Assembly (NCBI RefSeq): GCF_001540865.1
Contig: NC_033621.1
Coordinates: 7,299,286 to 7,363,285 of the forward strand
DNA length: 64,000 bases
Direction: 5' to 3'
Origin: Ananas comosus
Lineage: Eukaryota > Streptophyta > Magnoliopsida > Poales > Bromeliaceae
The notes under the pieces: generated by a model
The model's input: only the letters and a program-made list of their open reading frames with translations
Databases searched by the model: none
What the model was told of the DNA's origin: nothing
Part shown: piece by piece, positions 1 to 63,657 of the stretch
How positions within the stretch are numbered: position 1 is the first letter of the stretch
Layout: each line of letters starts with the position of its first letter
Program-made: the position numbers and the translations under genes

Positions 1-391
1 ACGTCAAATAGACGCCGAACGGACAGAGTTTCCCCTATCCGCCCAAGGCTCATCACATGTATAAATTCAAACAAGAAATGCATTAGCGGAAACACACACA
101 AACGGCTTACATTCCATAGCGCGGAATCTGTCTCCGGTGGTTTCAACCCAAGGTAAAACATCATTTCATGGGATACTAGTAGAAAACATGTACTACTATT
201 TACTACATTTCTTTTCTTACATTACACATTAAACTCCATTTACACTACATTCTTTTTTTAATACGTTACACATTACTTCATGTTTCTTAGTACTTACATT
301 TACCTAAGTTACATATACTATTTTTTACTTAGTATCATGAACATTTACAAATCAAAAGGAAAGAAAGTGATTACCGATAACGAATGGGAGC

Positions 392-416
392 NNNNNNNNN
401 NNNNNNNNNNNNNNNN
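392..416. other. Assembly gap (25 N)
   Basis: Run of 25 N inside the older LTR. The small minus-strand frame that crosses it (352-546) is not supported as a gene. Confidence 0.99.
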
Positions 417-8555: not shown

Positions 8556-11284
8556 TGTCGCGCCCCGGGACCGATACCAATTTGGGCCGGCCCGAGCACG
8601 TCAAACAGACGCCGAACGGACAGAGTTTCCCCTATCCGCCCAAGGCTCATCACATGTACAAATTCAAACAAGAAATGCACTAGCGGAAACACACACAAAC
8701 GGCTTATACGAGGGTAAGCAATAGCTATTAGTGAAAGAAAGGAAAACTAAACATTTACAAGTACTATGATTCATTTTTGATCATATACATTGCATCCATT
8801 TACATTCATGATTCTTTGTACTTCATTACACATTGCATAATTTTTTTCTTACATCACATTTACCTCAAATTACACATTACATTCTTTTCTTTACATCATT
8901 TATCATCATGTACAAAAGATGATCATAGGGTACTTTACTACAAAATGGAACCCAACTTTGGTGGCCTCTGTCTAAGGCGCGATACCTTTACCTCGGTCGC
9001 TCGCCGGCTCGCTCGGTCCCGGCTCTGTGGAATAGTGGGGTGAGAACTATAACAAAGTTCCTAGTGGGTTCGGCCTCAACATCACCGACTTTCCCACTAG
9101 GACAAACTCAGGCATAATAGCAAGGATAAGCTGAAATATAGTAACCAATCTACAACATGATGCTAATATGCTTGAACAATAAGTAAGGAATATGCTCAAC
9201 ATTAACATATGCAGATTATGCAAGTTCTTTCGTTCTTTATCTTTATACTTTGTTCTTTATTCTTTGTTCTTTGTTCTTTATTCTTTATTCTTTAATCTCA
9301 AGGCTAACCCGGGGGTTTCGCCACATTAACTTGCTTCACATTAAGTCCATCATCGCAGGAAATCACGCTAGTACGAGTCCTTCGGTTTATCCAACCGTGA
9401 CTGCATTATTCTGGAGCGCATCGCCGAGGGGGAGACCGCCTCTGAGCACGGACCCTCATAGCAAAGTATGATCATATCCTTAACTCAAAGGATTTATAAG
9501 TTCAATCTTGACTTTAAACTAGCTCTAGTGTTCATTCAATCACTTTATGTTGCTTACGGCAGAATCATTGTTCCTTTTACCATTTCATTACTTTGCTTAA
9601 CTTAGCAATTATATCTTTATTCTATCTCTTTAATTTGGTACCTCTAGCACTTAGATTCTTTACTCCCACATTACTTTATACTTTAACATATTCATTTTCA
9701 TCATTCTTTAATTATATTTGGTTCTTTACCTACCACTATCTCTAGTGTCATCAATTATAACTTTATCAAATGCCACTCGCATCTTATTGTCATTGTGTCA
9801 CTCTGTTTCATTTGGCTCCACTCTGGGTTGCTCACTTTTTCTTATGCAATACATTAGGGTTTTTTTGACGTTACATAGTTTTCATTCATCATATATATGC
9901 AAATTGTAACTAGCATCATGCAATCATTGATATGTTTCTATACTTCACTTACCCTAATAATGCAATGGCAAACAATATATTTACACGATGCTCAATGATA
10001 AATGACACATTAGCATTGAGAGAAGTGTTCAATGAGTGTTTTGAGTAAGCACCACCAACCTCGTAGGCGTTTCTAGGTGCTCCGATGATTTTTTTGCAGA
10101 TTTTGTAGGCTTCTGTTCTTTACCTGCGTGCGCAAAACAAAGCCCTATTAGGCCTTCTTGCTCATAATCTGTTACGATTGGATTTCGTAACATTATTACC
10201 GAGCGCTCAACGCGGGTCGGAATACCCCAGATTAGGTTTCTAGAGGGGTCAATTTTCAGCTTAGGAACCCCTCATGAGCAAAAGCCCATTTTGGTGCCCT
10301 AGTCCAATACATATACAAAAACCTAGGGTTTGATCTTCAATGAGAAAACAAAAGTAGGGCTTCATTATACTCTTAAAAAGTTCATTAGAACATTCTTAAG
10401 CTCACTCAAACTTTAGTTTTGGATTTCACCATGAGAGAGGGGATGAAGACTCTCCTCAAGCTTACCGTCCAAACACTAAACCTGTCTTGATCTCAAAATG
10501 AAGCAAAAGAAAAGTTTTCAAAGACTCAAATGTTTCCATAAACATTTCTAGGTACATAGTTCCCATTTTAGGGTTTTAGCATGATTAGGGTTCAAAGCTT
10601 ACCTTGTAAGCTTTTCCTTTCCAAGCTAGAGATGAGGTAGAGGGAGTTTTTTCACTCCTTCTTTTTCTCCACTTTCTTCTTCTTTTCCTTCCTTTCTTCC
10701 TTTCTTCTTCTTCTCCTTTGCCTTCTAGAGAGAGAGAGGGAGAGAAGAGAGTGTGAGAGGGTGAGGAAATGAGAGAAAATCTCATTAGCCGCCATAACAT
10801 AACCATTGGGTTGCAAAATTGCAGCCAAGCCCCTCAACTTTCACTTTAACACACTGCCCGAACTGGGCAGTTCGCGCAGGCGGGGACCGGTCTCTCCTTC
10901 AGGGACCGGTTCCCGAAGGCTCTCCCGCCGCAGCCAGAGCTGCTGCGTGCAGGGCAATCGGTCCCTCTTTGGGGGACCGGTCTCTCGGGGACCGATCTCT
11001 CAGGCAGGGACCGGTTCCCGAGAGTTAGTTTCTCAGGACTTAGCCGATTTTTCGGCTGTCTCATTTCATACGCGTTCGGGGACCGGTCTCTCCCACCAGG
11101 GACCGGTCCCCGAGAGCTGAAAACCTGCAGAATGCAGATTTCACAATTTTAGCTTTCGAAAACCTCCCGTAACTCACTTTTGATCATTTTAACACCTTCG
11201 GACTTTTCGAAGTGTACTATCCTCGCACTTTGGTCAATTTGACTAAAGTTCGATATTTATTTTCCGAATTTTCGGTATATTACA
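8556..11284 (-). repeat. 5' LTR of the chromovirus
   Basis: Long terminal repeat of 2729 bp. On the minus strand it runs from TGTAATATACC (right edge) to GGGCGCGACA (left edge), with TG...CA ends. It contains a GA/CT microsatellite near 10725-10760 and a cluster of ACCGGT palindromes (about 10885-11110). The promoter should lie here, but I could not place a TATA box with confidence. Confidence 0.92.
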
Positions 11285-22730: not shown

Positions 22731-22733
22731 ACA

Positions 22734-23990: not shown

Positions 23991-24181
23991 TTGACCTTCT
24001 TTCTCGGCTTTATGAACCGAGTTTTTATGACTTCCTCGGCCTTATTGGCCGAATTATCAAGTGCCAACACATCGGCTTTGGCAGCCGAATTATCCTCATA
24101 GCCGATCATGTTGATCGGCTCATCTTGTTGAGGCTTGTGCCAAGCCCCTATTCCCGATTTTTGGGACTCCATTTTAACCAT
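23987..24181 (-). pseudogene. Protease-RT spacer, shifted frame (Tat copy 1)
   Basis: Sixty-four codons rich in Asp, Ala and Lys (DNSAAKADVLALDNSANKA). They match the region in copy 2 at about 36113-36300 that is continuous with the RT frame. This is a frameshifted piece of pol, not a separate gene. Confidence 0.65.
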
Positions 24182-26454: not shown

Positions 26455-26510
26455 CTCGGCAGCACAGATTTCAGCTTCATCAGCCGAATCTTCTGCCTCT
26501 TCAGATGAAT

Positions 26511-26734
26511 TCAGCTCTTCATGAGCCGAGGATTCTTCGAAGAAAGAAATATTTTTCTCTTTCCTTTATTCCAATCTTTGTTTCGGCTCCATCTAGGCCG
26601 ATCTTCATTATTGCCTTTTCGAAATTGCTCATACTGAGCAACTCGAACTCCCAAATCAAAAAGATTTGGAAAGAACTTATCCTCAAAATGATCTTTAATC
26701 TTAAAATGCATGCCGTTAAATGCCATTTTGGCAA
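26511..26734 (-). pseudogene. Gag capsid segment, shifted frame (Tat copy 1)
   Basis: Holds AFNGMHFKIKDHFEDKFFPN and RVAQYEQFRKG, continuous in copy 2 (within 33279-34382). Here stops and shifts at both ends separate it from the flanking Gag segments. Confidence 0.75.
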
Positions 26735-26735
26735 A

Positions 26736-27857
26736 TTATGATTCCGGCATCCTTACAAAGCATCGGCTTCGAGCCGTCTTGAATCGGTTGAGATATTCGT
26801 CAACCGAGTCTCCTGTTCTTTGTCTAAATTGAGCCAAGTCTGCAACCGACAACTCAGGCTCAGTTCTATAAAATTGCTTATGAAATTTACCCTCTAACTC
26901 ATCCCAATCTCGAACGGAATTAGCGGGTAAACTTGTATACCAAGTGAAGGCTGTCTTAGTCAGTGAAGTATTAAATAATCTTAACTTCAAAAAAGGATCT
27001 GCCGCTGCTTCGCGGCATTGGGCTATAAATCGAGCGACATGTTCGACCGTATTTTCGGTCTCATCTCCAGAAAATTTATCAAATTTCGGCATCTTCCAAT
27101 TTGCCGGATATGGGTGTTCTATATCTATATTAGCAGGATATGGTGATCTGAATACAGGCCGCATTGCCGGCCTTGTGCCTACTCCGAAAGTATTCCGGAT
27201 CGCTTCTTCTATTTGCGCATATATCTCATTATTAATCCCCGGCAAGGGGGCTTGCGCTGGTACTGGGTTCAATGGCTGTTGAACCCCAATATTCTGCACT
27301 AGGGGATTAACCCCTTGTGCATTCGGAGCCTGCCCCCTAGCCCTAACATTTTGGGGCTGGTAGGCTGTCACTGAAGGGGGTGGAGGTAATCCCCAAGCCA
27401 CTTCCGGCTGTTGACCGGTGTTCCCAACAACCGGTCTATAAGCCGCTTGATACTGTGCCCCCTGGTATTGGGGCTGACCAACTACCGGTGTTACTGGATT
27501 TTGTAACATAGGCGTTATCACAGGCGCTTGAAGGCCTGCTATCGGCTGTTCGTTTCGAGCTAGCAACTGCCCTATTTGGGCTATGTTCTCGTCAGAGGTC
27601 GTGATTGCGGCCAAAACAGCATCCAGCCGTGCGGTACTTGCATGACTATTTTGGTCCAAAGTCTATAGGACCCTAGTCATTTGGCCAAGTGCTTGGGTCA
27701 AACTAGGCTCCTGTTGGCCGGATTGACTGCTAGTCTCACCTTCCACCGGTAAAACTGCTTGGCGCTCCACAGCGTTCTCCGAATTACTGGGCTGTTCACT
27801 CCCAGAATTTCTGGGAATGGCCCTATTACGGAGATTCATGGCGTTGTCGTCAGCCAT
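26736..27857 (-). pseudogene. Gag N-terminal region (Tat copy 1)
   Basis: Starts at ATG 27857 (MADDNAMNLRNRAIPRNSG), with one in-frame TAG at 27660-27662. A Pro/Gln/Val-rich linker (TPVVGQPQYQGAQYQ) follows, then the Gag capsid domain (KMPKFDKFSGDETENTVEHV, AFTWYTSLPANSVRDWDEL, VDEYLNRFKTARSRC). It forms the virus-like particle core. It lies directly downstream of the primer site. Confidence 0.85.
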
Positions 27858-27885
27858 AATTTATTCAACTTTACCTCAAATGTGA

Positions 27886-27905
27886 GTCCCACCGGGCGTG
27901 CCAAA
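27886..27905 (-). promoter_or_regulatory. Probable primer binding site (Tat copy 1)
   Basis: The minus strand reads TTTTTGGCACGCCCGGTGGG a few bases inside the 5' LTR. The same block lies at 32201-32220 in copy 2. Its position fits a tRNA primer site; I do not assign the tRNA. Confidence 0.7.
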
Positions 27906-27909
27906 AAAT

Positions 27910-28666
27910 TGTTGGCGGCTTAAAGTCCCGACCCTTGACCCGGTCAGGTATCCTCCTCGGGAAGAGCGTCGGGATGATGAGCGGCCGCGGATGACGACCC
28001 TCGAAGTTTGCGCCCACGACGGATCAAGCGATTCGGCCGATGACGGATCGAATCAGCCGGGTCCGAAAACCTTTGCAATAAATTCGCTTCAGCGGGATGA
28101 ACCGAATGGACAGGGGAGGCCTATATCTCGGCTGAGAGATGAGCCGAATGGCTAAAACAACTCGAGATCTGATTGGTAGGAAGGGCCGAAAATAACTTTC
28201 TATTGATTAGCGAGCGGAAAGAGTACAGGAACAAGGGAGTGATGCCCGTAGGGCAGACAGACTCCGAGTATGAGAACAGGGGAGTGATGCCCGTAGGCCA
28301 CAGACTCCGAGTATTCTAAATTACAGAACTACTCTAAAGAAAGCACGGTAATCGAGAACAGAAAGATGCACGAAATCCAGTGTCTTTGTCGCAGCGAAGA
28401 CAACCGTTTCAAGAGTATCAAAACGCTTATATTCAGATTGCCGCTTGCGTTAGTTATTCCTCTTGACACTATCAGTCCAATGGATTCTCCTGAATTATAG
28501 GACCGACTTTGCCGATCACAGATCAACCGACTCGCAACGCTTGCGGTTGCTATAAACTTCTTAGGTCCAGCGGGCTCGGCGTGCATCGCTGTACTCTAAG
28601 TCTAATGTTTTAGCGCTCTTACTAATATGGACCCGGCAGTCCATCTGTTCGCCGACATGGCTAACA
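27910..28666 (-). repeat. 5' LTR of Tat copy 1
   Basis: 757 bp, from tgttggcggcttaaag to atggctaaca. It matches 16467-17034 except for the ~189 bp missing there. The part after about 28260 has many single-base indels against its partner, suggesting poor base calling rather than age. Confidence 0.88.
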
Positions 28667-30985
28667 ATATCAAACGCAGTTTTTGTACGAATGCGAAAGG
28701 CGAGCATGGATGCGGGCACAGGCGAATGGGAAGCCAGGAATTTTTTTTTTTTTAAAGGATTTAGGTTTTTTTTTTCCTAATCCAATCTAATATTTTTTTA
28801 TTATAAAATTTTAAATATATAATTTTTATATACGCGAATTTTTAAATCTAACATGTAAGTGGTTTGATATAAAAATAAAATTTTAACAAGGTTGAAATAA
28901 ATGTTTCAAAAATGCTTCATGTTTGGAAAATTTTATACCGATTTATTTTGATTTTAATATCAAAACTTGTAATATATATATTATAATATGATGAGTGATT
29001 CAATTTACATCTATAATTTTTCAAAACTCATCAAAAATGAGTGCTGGACTCTTAATTTTAATAATTATGCATTATAAATATTTAATTAGCTTAGATTAGT
29101 TTTAACATACTCCGTTTTTCGAATAAAAGTCGATAATTGAACAAAATGGATGATAACTCATTTCTTCTTTATTTGGAATAATTTAATTTTTGGTCTTCAC
29201 AATTAGTAACAATCCGTAACAATTGTTCTAAATAATGTTTTTAAACAAATATTTGTAATCAATGGCCTCTACACTTTTCGGTCTTCAATTAGTAGTTAGT
29301 TGATACTGAGACCCATACTAATGCCTATTAATAAAATAGAGAGTTGAGAGTACGAAGCATTTTTAGGATTTGCTTTTTTATATCTCTGATGAACGTAGAA
29401 AATATTAAATTTTAACGTGTTAACGCAATATTACTACGGAAATAAAATAAAGTATTTTTTCAATCTAAGTTTCTCCACCAACCTTTCGTAATGTATATTC
29501 ACCTACAATTCCAACAAAAATCTAAGACCAGCGAATATAGTTCCAATATTTTTTAAGTCAAATATTATAGATCAATTGCTTAATTAAATAATTATTAATA
29601 TGTAATATATTCATATGATGCTATTAATTCTATTAGTTTGATTTAATACTAATATTATTGGCTAACTTACTTATATATAGAAGTGGCGTTACTTTTTTTA
29701 TCGATGAATGCAAACTGTTTATTAAACAGCTAAATTGTATATATATAGAGATAGAATCATTCAATCTTAGTGCTGTTGGCCATATTTTAGAAAACTCAAT
29801 TAGAACCTGCAACCTTTCGTTTTAATTACATCGTAGGACTCAACTTAATTTTGATTGAATATATTTACACCCGCTGCGAGACGGGGCCCTACATAGTATA
29901 ATAATTCATTGACTATCTTATAGCCTATTAATAATTCTCAATGAGCTATATATCAGGCCACATGTCACTATGACGAGATCTTCTGTGGGATACAGCTTAA
30001 AAAACTTTTGTCCTTTGGATGGATATAATATACTTATATGTATATTATATAATTAATATATATATATATGACATCATGCGAAAGAATTAATGCCGCGCGC
30101 CCCAAAGAATTTTTCACCATGCACTAAAGAGGACATTCTTTTAGCTGGTTTGGTTCCGTAAGCCTTTTATTCCAACCCAAAAGAGGAAATTAACGTCCGA
30201 GTGTGCAGGGGCCAACGGTCGTTATTGGTCCCTTTTCGCCAGTTGTTCTATTTCCTTGGCCAGTTGTTCGATAGAGCTGGAACGTGCATATGGAGCACGC
30301 ATCAACGCCAAAATTTGTTAGCCCTCCTTTTCCTTTTCTGATGTGATGATTATTTATTTTCTTTATATGACAAGTGTAAGAGCTGTTTAGTTTTCGGAAA
30401 GAATTTCAAATAATAATTTATACTAGTTAAGGACCCCGCCATATGTGGCGAAAAAGCAGTACAATAATAAATTATTATAATTATTAATATTATTTTTTTT
30501 ATCTACTAATATTTTTAAATATTATTTATCTCAGTATTGAATAATTAAAAATTAAAGAATAAATTTAGAATGAAATTAAAGTATATTTCAGTCTAAAAAT
30601 ATTTAAACCTAATAAATAAAATGAAAACATCAGTTTAAAATAAAACAAAAGCTTATTACAGCATTAAGAAAGATAAATAATACTTTTCTATTCTCATCAA
30701 GGTAGAATTTACAAAACAAAAATAAAAGCATTACGTGGAGTGAAAATACTAGTTTTGGTATTCTTAGTAGCAACGTCTTCATTGTGCCCTTATTAACTTT
30801 TATTGTTACACATACAACTAATAAAGTATTTGATTCATAAATTTTAATTTAGTGAAGAAATCAGTAGGTAATAATCAGAAGCAAAAAAAATAAGACTAAT
30901 AAAAAGACATTCGAAATCAAAATAGATATTTTTTACACAGTAAAAAAATTCAACTACCAAATATTATATTATTATATAAATTAAT
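28667..30985. other. AT-rich intergenic DNA, no gene seen
   Basis: Spacer between the two opposed Tat elements. It has poly-T runs, a TA microsatellite around 30040-30068, and a short GC hairpin (cgccatatgtggcg, about 30437) of the kind that marks some DNA-element ends. The less AT-rich stretch 30090-30340 shows no coding signal. Confidence 0.5.
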
Positions 30986-31494
30986 NNNNNNNNNNNNNNN
31001 NNNNNNNNNNNNNNNNNNNNNNNNNNNNNNNNNNNNNNNNNNNNNNNNNNNNNNNNNNNNNNNNNNNNNNNNNNNNNNNNNNNNNNNNNNNNNNNNNNNN
31101 NNNNNNNNNNNNNNNNNNNNNNNNNNNNNNNNNNNNNNNNNNNNNNNNNNNNNNNNNNNNNNNNNNNNNNNNNNNNNNNNNNNNNNNNNNNNNNNNNNNN
31201 NNNNNNNNNNNNNNNNNNNNNNNNNNNNNNNNNNNNNNNNNNNNNNNNNNNNNNNNNNNNNNNNNNNNNNNNNNNNNNNNNNNNNNNNNNNNNNNNNNNN
31301 NNNNNNNNNNNNNNNNNNNNNNNNNNNNNNNNNNNNNNNNNNNNNNNNNNNNNNNNNNNNNNNNNNNNNNNNNNNNNNNNNNNNNNNNNNNNNNNNNNNN
31401 NNNNNNNNNNNNNNNNNNNNNNNNNNNNNNNNNNNNNNNNNNNNNNNNNNNNNNNNNNNNNNNNNNNNNNNNNNNNNNNNNNNNNNNNNNNNNN
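30986..31494. other. Assembly gap (509 N)
   Basis: Run of N. It abuts a CT/TA microsatellite that probably caused the assembly break. It removes any outer part of the second Tat element's 5' LTR. Confidence 0.99.

Positions 31495-31575
<81 letters not shown>
31495..31575. repeat. Compound (CT)n / (TA)n microsatellite
   Basis: About 20 CT units followed by about 17 TA units. Confidence 0.97.
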
Positions 31576-31579
<4 letters not shown>

Positions 31580-31704
31580 TCCGGCTACTATACTTATTGA
31601 GCCGATTAAGCGAGAATCGGATTTAGATGCGAATATTCCCTTCAAAAGCGTCTTTTGGGTCGTGCATCGGAAGTACCGGAAGAAGGCATCACGCAAATTG
31701 AAGG

Positions 31705-32198
31705 TAATAATACCCCAAAAAGGGGTCTTCGCCCCTGCGCACAAAAGACCACCTTTATTTTCTTGCATCTCTCTTTCTCGCATTTACTTGTTTTTCCTAG
31801 GAGTAGTTCCTGTAACTTAGCATCCTAGAGTCTGTCTGCTCCTCGGGCATCACTCCGTTGTAGACTAAAAACCCATCTCTCTGTACTTTCCCCGGTTCCA
31901 TTTAATAGAAAGTCATTTTCGGCTCTTCAGGTCGACCAAATCTCAAGTTGTCCTAACCATTCGGCTCTTCTCTCTGCCCACTTTCTGGCTTGTTTCAAGT
32001 ATTCGGCTCATCCCAGCCGAACCGATTCTCTTATAAAGGTTTTGAACCCGGCTGACCCGATCCCTCGTCAGCCTAATCGCTTGATCTATCAAAGGGCGCA
32101 TACTTCGAGGGTCATCCTTCGCAGCCGTTTCCATCCCGATGCGCTTCCCGAGGAAGAACTTTGACCGGTTCAAAGGTCGGGAAATTTCCGCTCCAACA
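31705..32198 (+). repeat. Partial 5' LTR of Tat copy 2
   Basis: Matches the reverse complement of 16467-17034 and 27910-28666, for example gcacaaaagaccaccttt and ttcctaggagtagttcctgt. It ends ctccaaca before the primer site. It differs enough from copy 1 to be a distinct, older insertion or subfamily. Confidence 0.82.
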
Positions 32199-32200
32199 AA

Positions 32201-32220
32201 TTTTTGGCACGCCCAGTGGG
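32201..32220 (+). promoter_or_regulatory. Probable primer binding site (Tat copy 2)
   Basis: TTTTTGGCACGCCCAGTGGG just inside the LTR end, conserved with copy 1 (one difference). Confidence 0.7.
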
Positions 32221-32259
32221 ACACCAACATAAGGTAAATTTGCATTATATATATAAAGT

Positions 32260-34382
32260 ATGGCTGATGATAACGCCATGAATCTTCGTAATAGGGCTAT
32301 CCCTAGAAATTCTGGGAGTGAACAGCCCAGTAATTCAGAGAATGTGGTAGAGCGCCAAGCAGTCCTATCTGCTGAGGGTGAAACCAGCGGTCAATCTGGC
32401 CAACCGGAGCCTAGTTTGACTTAGGCGCTTGGACAAATAATTCGGGTCCTACTAACTTTGGACCAAAATAGTCATGTGAGTACCGCACGGCTGGATGCCT
32501 TCTTTGCCGCAATTACGGCCTCTAACGAGAACATCGCCCGAATAGGGCAGTTGTTAGCTCGGAATGAACAGCCGATAGCAGGCCTACAAGCGCCTGTGAT
32601 GACACCGGTGTTACAAAATCCAATAACAACAATAATTGGTCAGCCCCAATACTAGGGGGTACCATATCAAGCGGCTTATAGACCGGCTATCGGTAATGCC
32701 GGTCAACAGCCAGAAATGGCTTGGGGTTTACCTCCACCCCCTCTAATAGCAGTGTACCAGCCTCAGAATGTAGGGACTAGGGGGCAAGCTCCAAATGTAC
32801 AAGGGGTTAATCCCGTAGTACAAAACATTGGAGTTCCACTCCCACCGAACCGAGCACCAACGCAACCTCCTTACAGGGGATTAATAACGAAATTTATGCG
32901 CAAATAGAAGAAGCCATCCGGAATACTTTCGGAGTAGGCGCAAGGCCGGCAATGCGGCCCGTATTCAGGTCACCATATCCTGCAAACATAGATATAGAAC
33001 ACCCATATCCGGCAAATTGAAAGATGCCGAAGTTTGACAAGTTTTCCGGCGACGAGACCGAGAATACGGTCGAGCATGTCGCGCGGTTTACAGCTCAGTG
33101 CCGTGAGGCCGCAGCAGATCTATTTTTAAAGTTGAGGTTATTTAATACCTCATTGACTAAGACAGCTTTTACTTGGTACACGAGTTTACCTGCTAACTCT
33201 GTCCGAGATTGGGATGAGTTATAAGGTAAATTTCATGAACAGTTTTGTAGAACTGGGCCAGAACTATCAGTAGCGGATTTGGCTCAATTCAAACAAAGAA
33301 CAGGAGAATCGGTTGATGAATATTTAAACCGATTCAAGACTGCTCGAAGCCATTGTTTTGTAAGAATGCCGGAATCGGAGTTTGCCAAAATGGCATTCAA
33401 CGGCATGCATTTCAAAATTAAAGATCATTTTGAGGATAAATTCTTTCCAAATTTTTTCGATTTGGAAGTTCGGGTTGCTCAATATGAGCAATTTCGCAAA
33501 GGTAATAATGAAGATCGGCCCAGATGGAGCCGAAACAAAGATTGGAATAAAGGAAAAGAGAAAAATATCTCTTTCCTTGAAGAGTCATCGGCTCATGAAG
33601 AGCCGAATTCATCTGAGGAAAATGAGGATTCGGCTGATGAAGCCGAAATTTGTGCTGCTGAAATGGTGAGAAATAACCAACCATACAAATGTGTTTTGTT
33701 AAGACCTGCCAAGTCAAGAGAGGCGAAAGCACATGTGTCTGCTTTAAGTTATTCGTTTGATATAGCAAAAACCGATTTGATTTTTGATCGGTTGCTAAGG
33801 GACGGACGAATTAAACTACAGGAGGGTCAAACTATACCTCCTGTAGAAGAACTAAAACGCAGAAGATATTGCAAATGGCACCATTCATGGAGCCATAAAA
33901 CTAGTGAATGTACTGCCTTCAAGAGGCAAATTCAAAAAGAGATAAATGAGGGTCGGCTTATCTTTGCCGACCAAGAAAATCAAGACATGGAAATTGATAA
34001 GAATCCTTTTCCATCACAGGTCAACGCCGTGAACATGAAAGGGAAAGGAAAAGTGACTGCGAAAAGGCAGATCCAAGAAGAAATAGATGAGGGTCGGCTC
34101 ATATTAGCCGACCAGGAAAATGAAAATAAAGTAATTAACAGAAGTTCGTTTCCGTTTCAGGTTAATATGGTGAATGTTAAAGAAAAAGAGATTTTGGACA
34201 AGGAGACTGCTGACAACGTGGCCCATGCCAAAAAGCATCTTCGGCTTTGCATAAGGTGCAAGGCCGAAATGACGAAAAAAGACTGGGAAGCCATTATAAA
34301 TGCCAATAAAAAGGGGAACGAATGGAATGAGTTGATGGCGTTCCCTGAGATTTGGGATGACATTCCTGATGGTGAAGACTAA
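32260..34382 (+). pseudogene. Gag (Tat copy 2)
   Basis: Starts at ATG 32260 with MADDNAMNLRNRAIPRN, as in copy 1. In-frame stops occur near 32422 (TAG) and 32653 (TAG, after QPQY), among others. From 33024 the capsid region is open (MPKFDKFSGDETENTVEHV), and 33279-34382 gives 367 codons including the Cys/His cluster YCKWHHSWSHKTSEC and the paired EGRLIFADQEN / EGRLILADQEN repeats. It ends at a TAA near 34380 in the acidic segment. Confidence 0.85.
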
Positions 34383-34852
34383 GAAGAAGAAGGCTCGGAC
34401 GCAGCCTCCAATGACACTGAACCGGAAGTGAAATTGGTTCAACGCAAACAAGACATGTTGATGCAGAAGATTCTGCATGACTACTACAACAACAGGCGTG
34501 ACGAGTGTTAAGGCCGATGAGACTACCAGAGTAGACCTTTCGGCACTAAGCCAAGGATTCCTAGATATCGGCCATATTGGCAGCATCAAACGAGGCCGAG
34601 ACCAGAATCGGAATTCGAGGGAATGACCGAGGGAGACATAGAATTTCTCGGTCGAAGATTAGTCAACGAGTTAGGCATTCAGCCTTGGACGAGACCTTGG
34701 GAGAGGAGAGAAATTTTGAAAAATCATCTGAGGACAGTAAAGATACCGGCGAACGTGTCAGTAGATGAATGGCACGAAGTTGAGATTAAACCATCGGCCA
34801 GATGGCAGGGGCCGATGTTGACGAAAACTCAAAAGTGTCGGCAGCAGAGGAT
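34383..34852 (+). pseudogene. Gag-protease linker (Tat copy 2), up to a nested insertion
   Basis: Broken frames match the charged linker of copy 1: MTEGDIEFLGRRLVNELGIQ at 34623 and RWQGPMLTKTQK just before 34853. The match stops abruptly at 34853 where a foreign LTR begins. Confidence 0.75.
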
Positions 34853-35371
34853 GTGTCACGCCCGGGTACCAGCGGAAGCATATCCGGCACGTGCACAGAT
34901 CCGCCATACACCTACAGTATATAAGGCGTCTACAAGCAACAAGTCGATAGGAGAAAAGTATAGTAAAATCCTATTCTGATATCAGAGCAAAGTACAAGTC
35001 GATATACTATCAGTAAAGGTACAAAGAGTATACAATCCAAAATCTCAGCAAAAAGGAGAAGAGATCACAACTATAGTATCTGGTCCAAACAGTAAATATA
35101 CATCACGGGGTATACAAAAAGTAGGTACAATGGTAGTCACTCTATACACTGGACATCACCTTCGACAGTAGCCCGAGTAGCAAGGTGATCGACTAGCATG
35201 CTCCTAGCAATGTCTAGATAGACGCGACTCCCTTGCCACGATCCCTAGCCTCTCCTGTACTAGGCTCTGTAAAAACAACCACCAAAAGGGCGTGAGAACT
35301 ATAAACAATAGTTCCCAGTGGGTAAGCCGCCAGCCTCGGCGAATTACACCACTAGGCTCATGATGTACTAA
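34853..35371 (-). mobile_element. Partial LTR of another element nested in Tat copy 2
   Basis: Begins tgtcacgcccgggtacc, the same edge type as 63658 and the chromovirus LTRs. It shares the gtgagaactata ... agtgggt ... cactaggctcatgatg layout with them. It stops at a single N (35372), after which Tat sequence returns about 110 codons further on. The element is therefore truncated in the assembly, not complete. Confidence 0.7.
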
Positions 35372-35372
35372 N
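35372..35372. other. Single-N seam
   Basis: One N joins foreign LTR sequence to Tat copy 2. About 110 codons of host linker present in copy 1 are missing here. Confidence 0.9.
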
Positions 35373-36146
35373 AAATCAGCCGAAGAGTCGCCGGCTGAAG
35401 TGAATATGGTATATGCTTTGCCTCAATCCTTTAAGGCAGAGCTTATTGAGTATAAAGAGTTTAGAGAAGAGGAGGAAGATGGGCTCAAAGTAGCCCAGTT
35501 GCAATTGGAAGACGCCAAACCGGCCGATATGGTGATTTTCGAGAAGCCATCGGCCATGCAAACAAGATTCGTGAGGCCTCTTTTTATTCGGGCCTTAATT
35601 GAAGGTCGGCCGGTGCGCCGAGTAATGATAGATGGCAGAGCTATGGTTAATGTCATGCCCACTACGTTCTTCAAGAAGTTGGGCAAAGACGAAGATGAGT
35701 TGAAACCCACGGACACGGTCATGACCGACTTTACTGGGAGCGGTCAGCAAGCTCGAGGAGTCCTTACAACTGAGATCACGGTAGGTTCTAAAACTTTACG
35801 AACGGCATTTTTTATGGTTGATGCAGATGGTCAATATAACCTACCACTCGGGCGCGATTGGATTCATGCAAACAAGTGCGTGCCTTCTACACTCCACGGA
35901 AAACTATTCCAGTGGATCGGAGATAAAGTCGAAGAAATCCGGGCCGAAGGACGGCCCCAAATTGTGGACATCAACAATGAGGAAGTCGGCCATATCAATT
36001 GGGCCGACGCGGATCCAGATCAAATTTCCTTCGTAAGAGTTACAGAAGAAGGAGTCCAGTTGATCTTTACCAAAGAAGAAGGGGCTTTGGTGGCAGCCGA
36101 TGAGCCACCAAAGTGGTTAAAATGGAGTCCAAAAACTCGAGAATAG
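35373..36146 (+). pseudogene. Aspartic protease region (Tat copy 2)
   Basis: Open for 248 codons from 35400. Corresponds to the last third of the copy 1 frame 24148-26454. Protease motif: MIDGRAMVNVMPTTFF (copy 1 has VDGGAMVNVMP). Second motif: YNLPLGRDWIHANK. The active-site Asp is present, but its DGR context is abnormal, so activity is doubtful. Confidence 0.82.
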
Positions 36147-37235
36147 AGGCTTGTCAAGAGCCTCGACAGGAAAAGCCGATCAACAAGATTGGCTATAAGG
36201 AAGATTCGGTTACCACAGCCGATATGTTAACACTTGATGACTCGGCTAGTAAAGCCGACGAGGTTATAATAGATTCGGTTTACAGGACCGAAAAAGAAAA
36301 TCAAATGAAGTCGGTCACCAAGACCGACAAATCAGGCGAAATGAATAGACAAGCAAAAAAATTGGATCTAGAAGAGTCGCCTATCAAAGTCGGTGAGAAG
36401 AAGTTGGAGACCCAAGACCCACTGATCGAAGTAAATTTGGGATCCGACGAAGATAAGAGACAGACGTATATAAGCGCAAAGCTTTCGGCTCGACAGCAGA
36501 ATGAGCTGAAAGAACTATTGAAGGAGTACAAGGACTGTTTCGCCTGGAGCTATGAAGAAATGCCTGGGTTAAGCCGAGAAATTGTAGAGCATAGGCTGCC
36601 CACTAGAAAAGGGTTTAAACCTTTTAAACAACCGGCTCGTAGTTTTGAGCCGAGTATTGTACTCCAAATCAAGAATGAAATAGAAAATCTTTTGAAGGCC
36701 GGATTTATTAGAGCGGCCCGTTATGTTGATTGGGTGCTAACATAGTTCCAGTACGAAAAAAGAATGGTAAATTTAGAATTTGCATTGATTTCAGGAACTT
36801 AAATTTAGCCACACCAAAAGATGAGTATCCCATGCCAATAGCCGATATGTTAGTAGATTCGGCTTCCGGTAACGAGGTCATGTCCTTTATGGATGGACAT
36901 GCTGGTTATAATCAAATTTATATTGCTAAGGAAGATATGGCTAAAACGGCTTTTAGATGCCCTGATTCAATTGGAACTTTTGAATGGGTTGTATGCCGTT
37001 CAGCTTAAAGAATGCCGGAGCTACTTACCAGAGAGCAATAAATTTTATTTTCCATGATTTAATAGGCAAAATTGTGGAAGTATACATCGACGATATAGTC
37101 GTAAAATCCAAGTCGCAAGCCGAACATTTAATTGATTTAAAGCTCGCCTTTAAAAGAATGAGGAAATATAATTTGAAAATGAACCCTTTAAAATGTGCTT
37201 TTAGAGTTTCAGCAGAAAATTTTTTAGGATTTTGA
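36113..37235 (+). pseudogene. Spacer and reverse transcriptase (Tat copy 2)
   Basis: The spacer (MVKMESKNSRIEACQEPRQE) leads into RT: FKPFKQPARSFEPSIV, then a frame break at about 36740, IDFRNLNLATPKDEYP, FMDGHAGYNQIYIA, a second break near 37000, and the catalytic VYIDDIVVKSK. A stop at 37233-37235 (TGA) replaces a codon before the thumb. The YIDD core itself is intact. Confidence 0.87.
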
Positions 37236-38312
37236 GTGCATAAAAAAAAGATCGAAATTGATAAAAACAAGGCGAAAGCAATATTAGAATTACCGCCGCC
37301 AAAAAGCAAAAAGGAATTACAAAATTTGTTGGGAAAGATTAATTATCTTCGGCGGTTCATATTCAACTTGGCCGAAAAAATTGGAGTTTTTACTCCATTA
37401 CTTCGGCTTAAAGACAAAGAAGAATTTATTTGGACGGAGGAACAACAAGAGGCGTTTGAAAATATAAAAAGATATTTATCGAATCCTTCGGTACTGGTGC
37501 CTCCAAAGCTGAATCAGCCGATAAAGTTGTACATATCGGCTGCAGAGGAGAATTTGGGATGTTTGTTAGCCCAAGAAAATGAAGAAAAAGAAGAACAAGC
37601 CATTTATTATTTAAGCCGACGTTTTCTAGATACTGAGAAACGATATTCGGCTATTGAAAAATTATGTTTGGCTTTGTACTATTCATGCACAAAGCTAAGA
37701 TACTATATTTTACCGACTGAGGTGTCGGTAATATGCAAAACCGACCTGGTAAAGTATATGTTGGCTAAACCTGTATTAAGAGGTCGGCTTGGAAAATGGA
37801 TGTTGGCTTTGTTTGAATTCTCCCTTAATTATATTCCGGCTAAAGCCGTTAAAGGACAAGCGATAGCTGATTTCTTGGCTGATGATCCATATGTGGAATT
37901 AGAAGAACCGAAGCAAAATTTAGTCGGTTGTTAGCCTTGGACACTTTATTTTGACTGCTCAAGAACAGCCGAATGAGCAGGAGCTGGAATAGTTATCCAA
38001 TCTCCTGAAGGGTATTCATGCCAATTTGCTTTCGAGCTAGATTTCGGCTGCTCTAACAATCAAGCCGAATATGAGGCCTTAATAATTGGCCTAGAAATTT
38101 TACAAGAATTGAAAGCAAAATCAATCAAAGTCATTGGTGATTCACAATTAGTAATCAAAGAAGTGAATGGGGAATACCGATGTGGAAACCCAAATTTACA
38201 AAATTATTTAAGGAAGAATTTAGAGTTGCTATGTGAATTTAGAGAGACTGAATTCAAACATTTGAGCAGACAAAAAAATGAAAAGGCTAATGAACTAGCT
38301 CAATCGGCTTAA
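37236..38312 (+). pseudogene. RT thumb and dual RNase H (Tat copy 2)
   Basis: 37236-37934 holds the thumb and the degenerate RNase H (KINYLRRFIFNLAEKI, AIYYLSRRFLDTEKRYS). After a TAG comes the archaeal-like RNase H with LYFDCSRT, NNQAEYEALIIGL and VIGDSQLVIKEVNGEYRC, carrying one more stop near 37975. It ends with a TAA after NELAQSA. Confidence 0.87.
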
Positions 38313-39684
38313 GGATATAGAGAGCCGAAGTTAGAATCAATAGTAATACAGAGGAAGTTGCTACCTTCAGTTCACATATGAGAACCGATTATAGCTCCCA
38401 TAGAAGTGAAGGAAGATTAGAGAAAATTATTAATCAAATATCTCGAGGATCCTAATACAAGGGTCAATTATAATATCCGAGGAAGAGCTCTCGGCTATTG
38501 TCTATTAGACGGTCAACTTTACAAGAGAGCAACCGAAGAGGTTCTATTAAAGTGTTTAGAACCTGAAGAAGCTCTATTGATAATGGGAGAAACACATGAA
38601 AGAATATGTGGAAGCCATTTAGCCGAAAAAAAAAGTTAAGATGGACAATTCGGCATTTAGGATATTATTGGCCAATAATGCATCAAGATTGCATAAAATA
38701 TGCCAAAGGTTGTCAGGATTGCCAAGTTCACGGCTCGATCCAGAGAGTTCCGGCCTCTGAGATGTATGCAATAATTAAACTATGGCCTTTTCGAGGTTGG
38801 GCCATTTATTTAATTGGAGAAATTCAGCCGAACTCCTCGGCTGGTCACAAATTTTTAATAGTGGCTGTCGATTATTTCATTAAGTAGGTGGAAGCAAAAC
38901 CCATTCGGTTGGTTACCCAAAAAGAAATTATTGTTTTTGTTGAAGATCATATAATTCATCGCTTTGGGATTCCCGAGACAATTACGACTGATCAAGGGAC
39001 AATGTTCACAGGAGGACAGTTCGTTCGGTTCATCGAGTCTCAAAAGATAAAGTTGCTCCATTCATCTCCTTATTATGCCCAAGCGAATGGACAAGTAGAA
39101 GCAGCGAATAAAATAGTCATCAACCTGATGAAACGACATATCGGAAAGCATCCGAAAAAATGGAATGAAAAACTTTCTGAAGTATTATGGGCATGCCGAA
39201 CTTCAGTGAAAACGGCAACAGGGATGACACCATTCCAGCTAGTTTACGGACATGAAGCCGTAATTCCAGCCGAAATAACAGCTCCTTTAAAGACAGAAAA
39301 ACAAAAAGATTTATCGGCTGATGAATATAGTAATTTGATGAAGGACAAAGCAGAGGAAGTATGTGATACTCGGTTGATAGCTTTAGATAATATGCAAGCA
39401 TACCAAAGCCGAGTGTGTAGCACATACAATAAGAGAGTTCGATCAAAGACATTTGTCGTCGGTGATTTAGTACTTCGGCTGATTTTTCTAATCGGTCAAA
39501 AAGACCGAACATATGAAAAATAGTCTCCAAATTGGGACGGGCCATTTCAAGTCAGTCGAATCACAGGAGGAAATGCATATTATTTGCAGAACAGAGATGG
39601 GTCAGAAAATGAAAAACCAATTAACGGAAAATATTTAAAGAGATATTACCCATCTATGTGGAAAAATAATCAAAGTCAAAGTTA
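38313..39684 (+). pseudogene. Integrase (Tat copy 2)
   Basis: The zinc-binding region (KKLRWTIRHLGYYWPIMH, CQDCQVHG) is in 38606-38887. A TAG at 38885-38887 interrupts, then the catalytic core continues: TTDQGTMFTGGQF, QANGQVEAANK, and MTPFQLVYGHEAV. The last third breaks at 39521. It ends about 18 bases from the antisense gene's stop, repeating the tail-to-tail layout of copy 1. Confidence 0.87.
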
Positions 39685-41749: not shown

Positions 41750-42840
41750 AATGCCACATACCTATGGAAAAGTTTGGATGTGCCCGGTTCACTATAAACC
41801 GACTATAAACCGACTATAAATTGTACATTAAAATTAAAATGTCGATGAGATAATAAATTATTTAAATATTTTTATTATATTATATTTTATCTTATGTTAA
41901 ATGCTCCATCAATTATATAATATTCTGTGCAGTATACGAAAAATCAGTATGCATTAGATGTAAAAAAAGTTTCTTCTATCTTTCGAAATTATATGTGCAC
42001 TGGACTAAACATTCTCTACATCTGAATATATTTATGTACATATGCCACCTGCTCAACATTCTTTAATAGAAATTTTAAAATTAATACATCAAATATAATT
42101 TAAACTATTAGACTTTATAAATAAGATATATTTAGTTAATTTTTGATATTGGGCCATTAGTCAGCTAATATAAATTGTAGCATGTGGAGTAATAATATAC
42201 ACCAGATATATCCAATAGTTGCTTCTCTTCCAATTAATTTTAATAAAGTAAAGACACTCTCACCTATTCATTAATTTGATTTGAAATAAGTCCTCAAATT
42301 TTAATTTTTTAATTAAAAAATTTACTTAAAGAATGCCATCAAAATTATTAAATTTTAGTAAAGTTTTAAATAAAATTATTAAAATAATTCAACTCTATAA
42401 ATATTGAAAGTTAAGAAAATACTACTTAAAAAATTATTTCTTTTAATGTATGTATCACTATTTTATAAGTTTTCTCATATTTTTAATATATTTTTTTTTA
42501 AAAAAATTTAATAATTATATATTTTAATTGGCTGAAATAGAATCTATCCGCCGCGAAGCACGGTCCTATACCAGTTTAGAAATATAAGGTCCTCACCTCT
42601 CTCTAAAGTTAATAAAATTAGACCTTCAAAAAAATTTTATTTTTAACTAGTATTTCGAGTAGAATTATTTAAATATTTTTGTAAATTTTTTGAGAATTTA
42701 ATAAGATAGCGCGAATTGAACGTACTTTGTGATTAGATTTTGTGGGTCACATAAGAGGAATTGTAAATTACTTTATTAAAGAACAATTAATTTGAGGACT
42801 AAAATTTAGACATTGGTGCACCTGGTTTGGTGTAGCCAAT
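41750..42840 (+). repeat. Duplicated segment X (first copy)
   Basis: AT-rich, non-coding. The first ~388 bp match 60717-61104 almost base for base, from gccacatacctatggaaaag onward. The last ~150 bp (aagatagcgcgaattgaacg to gtgtagccaataat) match 63241-63385. The part between is found in the second copy only when 61105-63237 is read backwards. It contains a GC hairpin (ccgccgcgaagcacgg, about 42549). Confidence 0.92.
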
Positions 42841-44485
42841 AATTTGAGAAATATATAAATTTTTTAGAGTCGAATCTCAATTTCTCTGCCACCACATCGT
42901 ACTCCTAAATGATGAATTACTTAAAATATAATTACAATAATATTAACTATTTATTCTCTTTGGATGCAAAAAACTTGCGTATTGATATTCGATTCCAATT
43001 TAAGCCTAATTATATATATTGCCTAATATTATAGGGCAAGATGATAAATGCACTTGATATTCAACATGGTTACCTTCTTCAAAAGAGAAATAATATAGAA
43101 AAAATTTTAGAATACGCATAAATCTATAATTTCAATATTTTGTATTCTTAGTACCTATGTGTTTAAAGTTATCGATTTAGTGTCTGCCATGTTATTTTTA
43201 TTTTTTATTTTTATTATTAATTTCTACTAATTTTAAAATACTATTTAGTTGACAGAGCTATTAACTTAATATCATCTTTTATTTAATTAAATAAAAAATT
43301 TTTATCTAAATAATTAGTATGTTATTCAGATAATAATAAGAAAAAAATCTCAAGATTGAGAAGCACCTATAATTACTTCTAAAAGTTGTTTTAAAAAACA
43401 TGTTACTGCATCGTACTTTAAAAATTAAATTAAAATATATTTTTGAAAATTTTTATATATATACTCTGTCATATTGGACAGAACAAGGCTTCTCTGCTTG
43501 TATCAAATATCCAAATTAAGGCTGGAATTTGAAGGCTAATAAATAGTTAGGTTAATTTCATATTTACTCACAAAGTTATGATAATATCATAATACCTTTG
43601 AATTTTTTAAAATTTCACAAATACCTCTTAAATACAATATTTCTTTTCATAAAACCTCACCCGTTATTTTTTTCCTACTTCCATCAACGATAGCATTTTT
43701 TTTATTTTATTTTCAAACTTATGAAATTACCCATTTTAAACCCTTATTTTTTTTTAAAATCAAACTTTTGTTCACTTATTTTTGATATTATACTAAAACT
43801 ATCAACTATAGTCATTTAAGGTAAATCTTGAAGCTTTTTATTATTATTTTTTGAAGATAAATATTTAATTATATACTACGAAATTATTAAATTATTAAAT
43901 TGTTATAAATCATTAATGGATTAGATAGAACTCTCTAATTTAATAATAAATTATTAGAAAAATAAAATTTAAGAAGACTTTAATTAAAAAGTTAAATTTG
44001 GAGTGTATTCACTAATGTTTAGTTTAGGGGGTCTCGCTGATATTCAAAAAACAAAAAATTGTGAGTAGTGGTGATTAAATTAATAATAAACGTAAAATTC
44101 GGTATTTTTGAAGTTAATAACAATTGGAGCCTATGAGCGGAGTATTTTGAAAACTTTTTCATACTTTTGGAAGCAACTAATGAATTTACAAATTTTGAAG
44201 GGTTATTCTTGAAAATTAGACTACTATGGAAGTATTGAAAAATTTTTCCGCTTTTAATTAATTTACCAAATGAACTATGCCCGCACGTACACTGACGCTA
44301 ACGCTACCAGTCAAACATGCTGCGACACGCTCCGCACCTAGACACATAACACAAACCAATATTTAATCTCAACTATAAGACACTATACAAGTAAGGAACA
44401 CACTAATTCTAATGATCTAAGACGCACGCAACTAAACGCCCGCGGCCGCTCGCCAGCACGACGTCGTCTAACATCGGGTATGGCG

Positions 44486-60103: not shown

Positions 60104-60716
60104 CTGTAATAATGACCCATGCGTACTGAGCTAGGCGAGTATGGTGGTGAGGATGACGGTAGTCGAATCTGAGTTAGAGAAGGAGATAGAGAGGGAGATA
60201 GAAGGAGAATTGGGAAGGAGAATTGGGAAGGAGAAGAGGAGAAGAAGAAGGAAAAATTGGGGAAGAAGATATTATTATTTCATTGCTGTCTTCTAATTTC
60301 ATTACAATGCTACTTATAACTTCCCTATTGCGTACTGAAATGTAATTACATAAAGATAACTGCTCAAGTTGTAAAATAAGTAACTAAACAATAATGGGCT
60401 AATGTGGGCCCAATCTACCAGTGGATCTGGGCTCCTTGATCTGCCTGGTTAAGTTGGCGGATCGAGTTCCACCCGTTAGTCGCCCGCTCCACTCGGTCGT
60501 GCCCGCTCTGTTAAGCTTGGATTTTATTTACTTATGCCCCTTTGACTGACATAGATTTTGTCGTATCTCTTGACCTCAACTCTACTCTTCTCCCTCTCCT
60601 CCGATCTCTCTCCCCGCCGGCGTTACATTGCGTCTCTCGGCTCGGATGAGAAGATACTGTAAGGCCCGGACTCACCGCAACCACCTAAGTGAGGATTGTG
60701 GATGAATGGGCTCGGA
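60104..60716. other. Upstream region of copy E
   Basis: Includes a GA-rich stretch (60170-60260) and an AT-rich section. Probable leader and promoter of copy E; no TATA box was fixed with confidence. Confidence 0.4.
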
Positions 60717-61104
60717 TGCCACATACCTATGGAAAAGTTTGGATGTGCCCGGTTCACTATAAACCGACTATAAACCGACTATAAATTGTACATTAAAAAT
60801 AAAATATCGATGAGCTAATAAATTATTTAAATATTTTTATTATATTATATTTTATCTTATGTTAAATGCTCCTTCAATTATATAATATTCTGTGCAGTAT
60901 ACGAAACATCAGTATGCATTAGATGCAAAAAAAGTTTCTCCTCTCTTTCGAAATTATATGTGCATTGGGCTAAGCATTCTCTGTATCCGAATATATTTAT
61001 GTACATATACCACCTGCTCAACATTCTTTAATAGAAATTTTAAAATTAATACATCAAATATAATTTAAACTATTAGACTTTATAAATAAGGTATATTTAG
61101 TTAA
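60717..61104 (+). repeat. Duplicated segment X' (left part)
   Basis: Near-identical to 41750-42137 (gccacatacctatggaaaag ... atatttagttaa). The match stops exactly at 61104. Confidence 0.93.
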
Positions 61105-63237
61105 CTGCCCTCATCAGGATCCTACCCACTGGGGGACCCTTCAACCCCGCAGTGTCGGCTAGTAGCTAAACCTCCGAGGTAGTAACTTTTGTTTACCCGC
61201 CGTTGTCTCAGGCAAACGATGGCTATTGTAAGGTCGAGTTGAGAGAGACAGAGATATATATAAATATGTGTGTGTGTAAATTTAAGTAGTATTTTAGGAT
61301 TACTAAATATTAACAAATTCTATTACACGACGTGGTTATTCTACTAAAATTAAGAAGATTTACTTACAATCTGCAGAAAAGTTTGAAACTCTTTGATTAA
61401 CTATTAAACGAAAGCTCATTTATACTCTCTATAAGATTCAATGGAGAGGTTGTTTTGTTCGGTTTTTACTCTATAAGGATCCATCATAATAATAATAAAA
61501 TTATTCATACGATTTCTTCGTGATACATACAAAGATTTAAGTTTTTTTTTTTCTTTTTTCTATAAAAACACATTATAACATTCAAGACGAAGAGCTTTCG
61601 TCTTCACACGAAGTGACAAAATTAAAAGTTATTAAAAGAGATTATTATAAGAAGATAGTACACCGTCTAGAAATATCTCCCGAGACAGCAAATGAATTTT
61701 TAAGTATAAGATTAAAGATAGAGTCTGAAGGAAACAACGATACTTATGATGAACTAGCTTGTCACGATGAGAAATGGTGTTTCTGTTTGTTGAACAAGTT
61801 TTCAACAGAATCCTTATTTCTCGTGAGTGTTTTTTTTTCCTTTTTTTTTTTTTTCTATTCCTTAACATTTCTAATTAACCACAACCGCGGAATTTTTAGC
61901 ACGGTGCACCACTTAACCATACATGGTGTTCTTATCGGAAACTTCGGTCTCTCCTCGTTGTATACCACGCGGTCCTCGTCTCTTTCACGTGGATTTTGGT
62001 TTTTCGTACGTCAACTAGTCGAATATGTTAATCCTAGACGTCTATCACCGGGTGTTTTAGTCCTTACACCGAGTAGTACCTTTATTGACTTATTGTTGTC
62101 CACTTTAATATTTATCTATTCTTTGTAGACTGTATCTCCATAAAAAGAGACACTTGCTCTTCTGGTTAAATAAAAAAGAATGTAAAAAGTGCAAGATCCT
62201 CATCAGATAAACGTTATAAAAGTAAACAGAAACGTAAATGACAAAAAAGGATCCTCATCAAAATCCTATCAAAGAGAGGTGTAACTTGCGGAATCATCGC
62301 TAAGAGAGAACATTTGTCACAAGGAAACAACGTTATGTGTATATAGTTGTAATAAGCCGAGTAATCGGCTTAGCTTCAATGACACATTTTAATAAGAAAA
62401 TAAAATTATATGTATATAGTTGTGGTAAGCCGAGTAGTCGGCTTGGCTTCAATGACATACTCTAACTTGAGCCGACTAAACTAAAGAGTAATCAGCTTAG
62501 CGAACTAAGCTGCCACCTTCGTCTGAAGCTCCCAGTAGTAGTCATCGACGAAGTAAGGAATCGCACGAAGGGCTTCCTTCCATAACTGGCTCAGTCGCCA
62601 ATTCTTTTAGCCGAGCGTCGTTGACTTAAAGGTGTCAAAGGTTAGAGAGAGAAAGAAAGAGAGAGAGAGATGGTTAATAGAACATAGTAAAACGAGAATG
62701 TGATTCTGGTATGGAACTTCCAACCGACTAAAACTGTAGATTTTTGCTGGAACCCTCATGACAACTTTTATATATCATAAAACTTCTCAGTTCTTCGTAT
62801 TATAAGAATAAAAGAATATCTTTCTCCTAACGTGTATGATTTAGAAAGCGTAGGAAGTTTAAATAATTTAATCATATCCGGACATGAAGCGCTTCCCATC
62901 TGTTATAAACTCGGTTAATTCTATCAGAATACATGTAATATTGAAAAATTAATCATAAAAGAATTGAAAGTTATAAATATCTCAACTTAATAACATTATT
63001 TAAATAAATTTTGAAATAATTTTAAATATCAAAATACCAGTAAGACATCCATTTAAAAAATTAATTTTTTAATTTTAAACTCCTGAATAAAGTTTAGTGT
63101 AATTACTTATCCACTCTCACGGAAATGGAATAATTTTAATTAACCTTCTCAGTTCGTTGATAACGTATATAGACCACATATAATAATGAGGTGTACGATG
63201 TTAAATATAATCTACTGATTACCGGGTTATAGTTTTT
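61105..63237. other. Segment stored reversed without complementing (assembly artefact)
   Basis: Read from 63237 backwards, the letters give tttttgatattgggccatta, which is what follows agttaa in X at 42140. The match continues for about 400 bases (63237 down to about 62850) against 42140-42560. Taken base by base as complement, without reversing, the rest gives Tat-LTR sequence and a 5S-rRNA-like motif. Genes called on either normal strand here, including the 171-codon frame at 61613-62128, are meaningless. Confidence 0.9.
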
Positions 63238-63238
63238 N
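63238..63238. other. Single-N seam
   Basis: One N at the right edge of the reversed segment. Normal sequence of X' resumes at 63239. Confidence 0.95.
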
Positions 63239-63385
63239 TTAATAAGAAAGCGCGAATTGAACGTACTTTGTGATTAGATTTTGTGGGTCACATAAGAGGA
63301 ATTGTAAATTACTTTTATTAAAGAACAATTAATTTGAGGACTAAAATTTAGACATTGGTGTACCTGGTTTGGTGTAGCCAATAAT
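63239..63385 (+). repeat. Duplicated segment X' (right part)
   Basis: Matches 42700-42840 (aagcgcgaattgaacgtact ... gtgtagccaataat). About 140 bp of X just before this point is absent, presumably in the gap. Confidence 0.92.
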
Positions 63386-63657
63386 TTTGCGCTCTCCATC
63401 CAAGGTGGTTAGTAACATGGCATTTTTGTGGTGGTGACGTGGCACAGCAAGGATATCATGACACTGTCAAATTAGTATACACCTGTTGTTGTAGTGATCA
63501 CACCCCAGTCCACTGAATGGTCGTCGTCGCGGAACGATTCTGCAGCTCATTATTTGATGATGAAATATATTTAAAACGATTGAATTAGTCGTTGGATGAA
63601 CGACGAGTTGTAGACGACCGTGAAATTGAGTAATGGTGGGATTGGTCAGTGTGTGTG
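63386..63657. other. Intergenic, no gene seen
   Basis: Departs from X at gcgctctccatcc. Nothing recognised. Confidence 0.45.

Follow-up and report, generated by a model that had tools for sequence, protein, structure and literature searches.

Letter-reversed, uncomplemented blocks in the pineapple F153 reference assembly

How should a stretch of chromosome be read when neither of its strands resembles the sequence that ought to follow its flank, and its letters match elsewhere once their order alone is turned round? The question arises at positions 61105-63237 of the window, the whole 64-kb stretch of Ananas comosus DNA analyzed here (C1:7299286-7363285 in the assembly searched, which holds 381,958,007 bases in 3,128 contigs). 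A reading made earlier from the letters alone (the sequence-only reading) had described this segment as written backwards without being complemented, and had attributed it to software that reversed a gap fill beside the single N at 63238. The segment was confirmed, with both edges where that reading had placed them, and the features discussed below are collected in Table 1.

Table 1. Coordinates of reversed blocks, their flanks and the copies used to read them (window positions unless stated otherwise)
Feature	Position	Strand	Evidence
Letter-reversed block, uncomplemented, in place, 2,133 letters	61105..63237	.	C8, C19 and window matches; Markov log-odds
Single N, right edge of the 2,133-letter block	63238..63238	.	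Sequence itself
X', ordinary left flank	60716..61104	+	373/389 identical to 41751-42139; true continuation is 61105-63237 read backwards
X', ordinary right flank	63239..63387	+	146/149 to 42698-42846, as written
X, ordinary copy, within-window answer key for 61105-63237	41751..42437	+	Alignment to X'
5S-rRNA-like piece, legible in plain complement only	61110..61143	.	32/34 to plant 5S positions 70-103
Retrotransposon-end-like piece (ends at ~28.0 and ~32.1 kb), legible reversed/complemented only	62424..62595	.	72.5% to 27936-28109; 70.3% to 32001-32156
Ordinary left flank of the second block	1..111	+	1-109 as written vs 8598-8706, 97.2%
Second letter-reversed block, 280 letters	112..391	.	Reverse-only matches: 98.9% to 8709-8988, 87.1% to 970-1252
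25-N gap, right edge of the second block	392..416	.	Sequence itself
Ordinary copy, answer key for the second block	8598..8988	+	Reversed match starts at 8709
Reversed block, ~8.0 kb, starting at a single N	L014 1419 to ~9420 (C14:5,507,418-5,515,419)	.	Plain complement of C1

Results

Letter order of the 2,133-letter block

The central claim of the sequence-only reading was that X' breaks off at 61104 and that its continuation, as known from the copy X, lies in the block in reverse order. When the letters of 61105-63237 were reversed, positions 1-299 matched 42140-42437 at 94.0% (301 columns, E 1e-127), and with the block restored to reversed order the alignment of X and X' lengthened from 389 to 690 columns, unbroken at 61104. 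As written, the segment's matches in a BLAST search of both strands of the 64-kb window were limited to itself, an internal repeat of its own and simple repeats. An ordinary inversion or reverse complement was rejected for this block, and for a second one at 112-391 described below, because neither strand as written gives a match of the kind obtained by reversal. The broader form of that explanation is an inversion or mis-oriented contig in which strand and direction are both swapped. It would suit the position of the block edges at gaps, where mis-orientation is common, but no both-strand BLAST match as written was found in the window, and reverse-only text matches at 94-99%, so it is extremely improbable. 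A mis-oriented contig resembles the present case in that a minus-strand piece was handled wrongly; it differs in remaining a valid, searchable reverse complement, whereas the text here is invisible to DNA and protein searches.

The sequence-only reading had also recognized pieces of the block in its plain complement. The resemblance around 62219-62261 was recovered (82.6% to 31763-31808), as was the 5S-like piece at 61110-61143, which agreed with positions 70-103 of the plant 5S rRNA sequence (E 5e-11); in that comparison the piece as written gave a 9-letter chance hit and the remaining two readings gave none. A further resemblance, claimed for 62525-62640, held in part: the plain complement of 62426-62580 matched 32001-32156, so that the interval is only partly covered, and the reversed text also matched the retrotransposon end near 28.0 kb (Table 1). 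Rfam at its gathering threshold returned no matches over the whole window.

Composition set the block apart from its surroundings. Under an order-4 Markov model, the log-odds of the as-written over the reversed text was -44.9 for the block; across 27 controls it averaged +32.0, with an sd of 9.5 and a minimum of +18.0. The block was negative, and the lowest of all, at every order from 1 to 5; one of the 27 controls likewise fell below zero at orders 1 and 2. Its dinucleotide values as written (GC 0.70, CG 1.17) differed from those in the rest of the window (GC 1.14, CG 0.97). In a backwards-tile control, for which the window was divided into 29 tiles of 2133 bp (the block and 28 others), six tiles exceeded 45 bits and all six contain a reversed block or a known partner copy, partners being those found by searching the whole reversed window against itself; two further tiles reached 40-43 bits.

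The same search of the reversed window yielded the 280-letter block at 112-391, which the sequence-only inventory of reversed text, correct for 61105-63237, had missed. Its order-4 log-odds was -7.2, and it went undetected by the two-state HMM described below, being shorter than the HMM can call. Both blocks of the window show the same order of parts, from ordinary flank to reversed block to N.

Copies and seams elsewhere in the genome

In reversed order, the 2,133-letter block matched C8:4048221-4050162 at 97% over query positions 144-2082 (1.94 kb, 3226 bits) and C19:765627-765925 at 99% over letters 1-299. The C8 copy is without letters 1-143 of the block, and no flank match lies beside it. 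Sixteen listed copies begin with the first or second letter of the reversed block, and eight of these are preceded directly by the left flank; for the other eight, no flank match was present among the matches listed (best 40 of 128 candidates). Flank and block are exactly adjacent at six seams, namely C1:7341424/7341425 (which is X in the window), C19:765626/765627, C5:14064301/14064302, C7:11370259/11370260, C10:5464364/5464363(-) and C24:5616476/5616475(-), and lie within two bases of each other at two more (C5:5989738/5989740 and C1:21910504/21910503). Since the flank directly precedes the start of the reversed block in these eight copies, the sequence that truly follows 61104 is the block read backwards.

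The block as written behaved differently in the genome. Among the best 40 of 130 candidates, its best non-self match was short and scored 142 bits, and at least 45 non-self matches fell in 31 places. The analysis covered twenty of the 31 places, in 14 long stretches and six further short loci; each of the 20 is reversed at the match, by score or by painting, which rules out a genuine forward family behind the as-written matches at the places examined. Forward copies of that repeat family (in the stretches L002, L006, L020, L022 and L027) match the reversed text only.

Recurrence of two polarities across the assembly

Genomic stretches, designated by L-numbers, were fetched as 10 kb around each of 14 as-written match places together with six arbitrary ones. 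A two-state model of k-mer composition (forward, F, or reversed, R) was fitted on these stretches and the window, 263 kb in all. BLAST, which is blind to composition, divided ~311 kb (40 random stretches among them) in the same way at E ≤1e-15. Reverse-only matches between labelled stretches numbered 243 for F-R pairs and 0 for both F-F and R-R pairs, and ordinary matches numbered 470 for R-R, 133 for F-F and 8 for F-R, all eight of the last sitting where the HMM had set two block edges too far out. Pairs with unlabelled or mixed stretches contributed a further 52 ordinary and 82 reverse-only matches. As 14 of the 20 long stretches had been picked for matching reversed text, these counts describe a partition and not a genome average. 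The stretches sampled beyond the window, where the sequence-only reading had suggested a scan, show the defect at many other sites, and flank continuity was regained on reading the block backwards at the window block, in the C14/C1 pair described below and at the L028 block 6741-9329.

Counting every locus a single time gives 17 blocks, 15 from fetched loci and two from the window; 12 of them adjoin an N run, of 1, 12, 14, 24 or 25 letters, in agreement with the relevance that had been ascribed to the single N at 63238. In three of these 12 the N has reversed text to its left and to its right, and the remaining five blocks have no N within the fetched stretch. Many N runs have no reversed block beside them: this holds for three of five in the window and for three of four in the six arbitrary stretches. 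Several blocks are large if they are continuous between probes: ~20 kb or more on C15, 15-25 kb on C10, where one inside probe was ambiguous, and 14-24 kb on C24. The ambiguous probes of these ladders were L077 (+3.1), L073 (+2.5) and L086 (-0.2). The HMM painting extended the large block of the window beyond its N to 64000 and contained contrary short runs, reversed at L025:5492-5611 and forward at L019:3829-3914 and 9277-9315. The L025 run is painted reversed within an otherwise forward stretch, and its locus contains no N.

The C14 block and its normal counterpart on C1

The ~8.0-kb block on C14 could be compared with a normal copy. The flank on its right (L014 9418-9901) matches C1:12936878-12937361 as its reverse complement at 99.4%, and against the continuing C1 sequence the block is the plain complement, at 99.9% over 690, 100% over 1,842 and 99.9% over 2,430 letters; the comparison spans 5.0 kb of the block, and ~2.9 kb of the C1 counterpart lies outside it. 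The two agree at the seam within three letters. All 19 pieces (500 bp or remainder) cut from the two C1 loci had forward scores, with two falling below 1. The correct patch would be the reverse complement; judged from the letters, the C14 patch is one that was complemented but left in its original order, which amounts to reversal in place. The block carries ~90-100 letters beyond its C1 counterpart at one place, next to a long run of A (L014 6900-6990 against L087 1834-1842).

These identities also bear on whether such text could be natural. Copying of DNA in parallel orientation would produce mirror sequence, and apart from the letters themselves nothing points to it. The 99.9-100% plain-complement agreement of the C14 block with normal C1 and the N runs beside most blocks argue against such copying, and we know of no polymerase or recombination route that yields parallel-orientation mirror copies. 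Its probability is negligible.

Genes hidden in reversed text

Pfam domains were found in five of nine long ORFs taken from reversed blocks and in none of the six longest ORFs as written. The five comprise an F-box, a Core-2/I-branching domain in two pieces, a Tf2-1 SH3 domain with an integrase end, and a plant mobile domain; the reversed ORFs of L014 (211 aa), L017 (176 aa) and L016 (175 aa) gave no Pfam match. The Core-2/I-branching domain was read from reversed C14 text with a Pfam E value of 1e-61. The same gene lies in normal polarity at C1:12944514-12945152, with 100% amino-acid identity to the reversed C14 reading, and in a six-frame search of the genome the C14 place was absent among the matches listed. 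Over 12 blocks, ORFs of at least 120 residues numbered 31 in the reversed reading against 16 in the text as written, with L012, L019 and L021 holding more as written than reversed. Pieces of a Core-2/I-branching enzyme, an F-box protein and a quinone-oxidoreductase exon (the last from C20, below) are visible after reversal only, and aligners, gene finders and repeat maskers appear unable to read many blocks of this crop reference.

Origin of the reversed text

The recurrence, the seams and the letter relation all support a software error as the cause, as the sequence-only reading had supposed. We conclude that 61105-63237 is almost certainly an assembly artefact, in which an opposite-strand piece was converted wrongly in gap filling, patching or scaffolding so that the text is the true sequence in reverse letter order. 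The error is one of genome-wide text handling, not a biological feature. The analyzed copy of the sequence may instead have been altered after deposition.

As to the program, its faulty step and the strand of the source patch, we infer that a minus-strand patch was most likely complemented but left unreversed. A plus-strand patch reversed without complementing would give the same resulting letters. The latter is the step the sequence-only reading had named; it fits the letters, but the defect is systematic and the minus-strand route accounts for the letters identically. Only some gaps are affected, which favors an orientation-dependent bug and with it complementing without reversing. Calling Perl's reverse in list context is a known slip of this kind.

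The defect extends past the gap fill that the sequence-only reading had assumed. The C14 block of ~8 kb, those of C15 and C10 at the sizes given above, and perhaps one of ~94 kb on C20 go beyond small fills. The fault may have arisen in the scaffolding or merging of whole contigs or BAC-derived pieces and not in gap filling, a variant to which we give somewhat less than an even chance. The large blocks speak for it, as does the low indel rate between blocks: the ratio of gaps to substitutions in alignments of at least 85% identity was 0.05 for R-R pairs, a value dominated by one repeat family, 0.11 for F-R and 0.59 for F-F. A published account describes F153 (382 Mb) as built from Illumina, Moleculo and PacBio data and 9,400 BACs (PMC6022998), sources compatible with such merging. 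Both window blocks, at 280 and 2,133 letters, nevertheless have flank at one edge and N at the other, like a one-sided extension. Large and small blocks could have passed through one faulty routine. The low R-R indel rate speaks against a fill from raw PacBio or other long reads.

One-sided or over-filled gap extension is described for PBJelly (PMC3504050). The likeness to that description lies in new letters standing between a contig end and residual N, here with the contig end continuing into the patch read backwards; the difference is that the fills described there (PMC3504050) are read-derived and of normal polarity, whereas the blocks here have wrong polarity and few indels. No source was found stating that PBJelly was used for this assembly, and no earlier report of a letter-reversal error in pineapple was recognized among the open-access papers listed.

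Extent in the assembly and relation to F153-specific sequence

Several samples bear on how much of the assembly is affected. None of the 40 random 1.2-kb stretches, which were not in the training set of the model, was confidently reversed; 33 scored above +5, L057 and L062 were marginally below zero and L033 was all N. The stretches used to calibrate these scores were themselves part of the training set. One block, 2.6 kb long, lay in the six arbitrary 10-kb stretches. Initial candidates for this text, 130 as written against 5,074 reversed, give a rough 2.5%, and the reversed share of the window, itself chosen for the finding, is 3.8%. The reversed share of the assembly is thus perhaps 2-6%, with a wide error.

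Sequence held to be peculiar to F153 offers a point of comparison. A pineapple PAV study lists 15,973 F153-specific regions totalling 24.18 Mb and missing from two other assemblies, the longest being 94,200 bp at chr20:65,001-159,200 without PAV genes (PMC8824783). The same study gives the size of F153 as 377 Mb, so the release may differ and coordinates may not transfer exactly (PMC8824783). C20 was taken to be chromosome 20, an assumption from size order. Four 560-bp probes inside chr20:65,001-159,200 had log-odds of -11.5, -3.9, -1.1 and -15.9, all four thus reversed, two weakly; forward pieces of the window, used for calibration and also part of the training set, averaged +8.8 (sd 5.0), with 5 of 105 below zero. 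One probe, when reversed, contained a quinone-oxidoreductase exon, which matched in PDB over the whole 81-residue ORF (E 2.8e-8) and in NCBIfam over the ORF's first 58 residues (1.3e-10). Of two ORFs of this probe as written, one gave nothing and the other E 0.45, and Pfam found nothing in six short ORFs of the C20 probes (four reversed, two as written).

In that study the F153-specific sequence is taken as real (PMC8824783); in our analysis part of it, including its longest segment, looks like backwards text. Reversed blocks probably create false differences between varieties. It is somewhat more likely than not that a 2-6% share of the F153 reference (on the order of 8-23 Mb, in blocks of hundreds of letters to ~94 kb) is reversed, hides genes from every search and explains much of the 24 Mb published as F153-specific. 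Comparing the k-mer log-odds of a stretch with that of its mirror image is a cheap check, and if the estimate is true, a polarity scan by composition only could reveal the same error in other public assemblies.

Repeats and retrotransposons at the locus

A repeat of ~600 bp has many copies in the genome. Its inverted arms, ~110 bp long, face one another over a spacer of ~370 bp, and AT and CT runs flank the repeat. It occurs in the window at 61156-61267 (in reversed polarity) and in L005, L012, L014, L015, L018, L021 and others, and appears to be a small non-autonomous DNA transposon. By arithmetic on the matches in L022, the normal spacing of its arms is regained only with the block 4350-5973 read backwards.

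Two related retrotransposons of the Ty3 type stand head to head within 20636-39523 of the window, one on the minus strand (27662-20636) and one on the plus strand (33225-39523), and a 509-N gap at 30986-31494 lies between them. The second matches the first on both sides of 34854-35372 and not within it. That stretch ends in a single N and is without a reverse-only match, while 35043-35371 match L028:9673-10000 as written; it is probably another insertion or patch.
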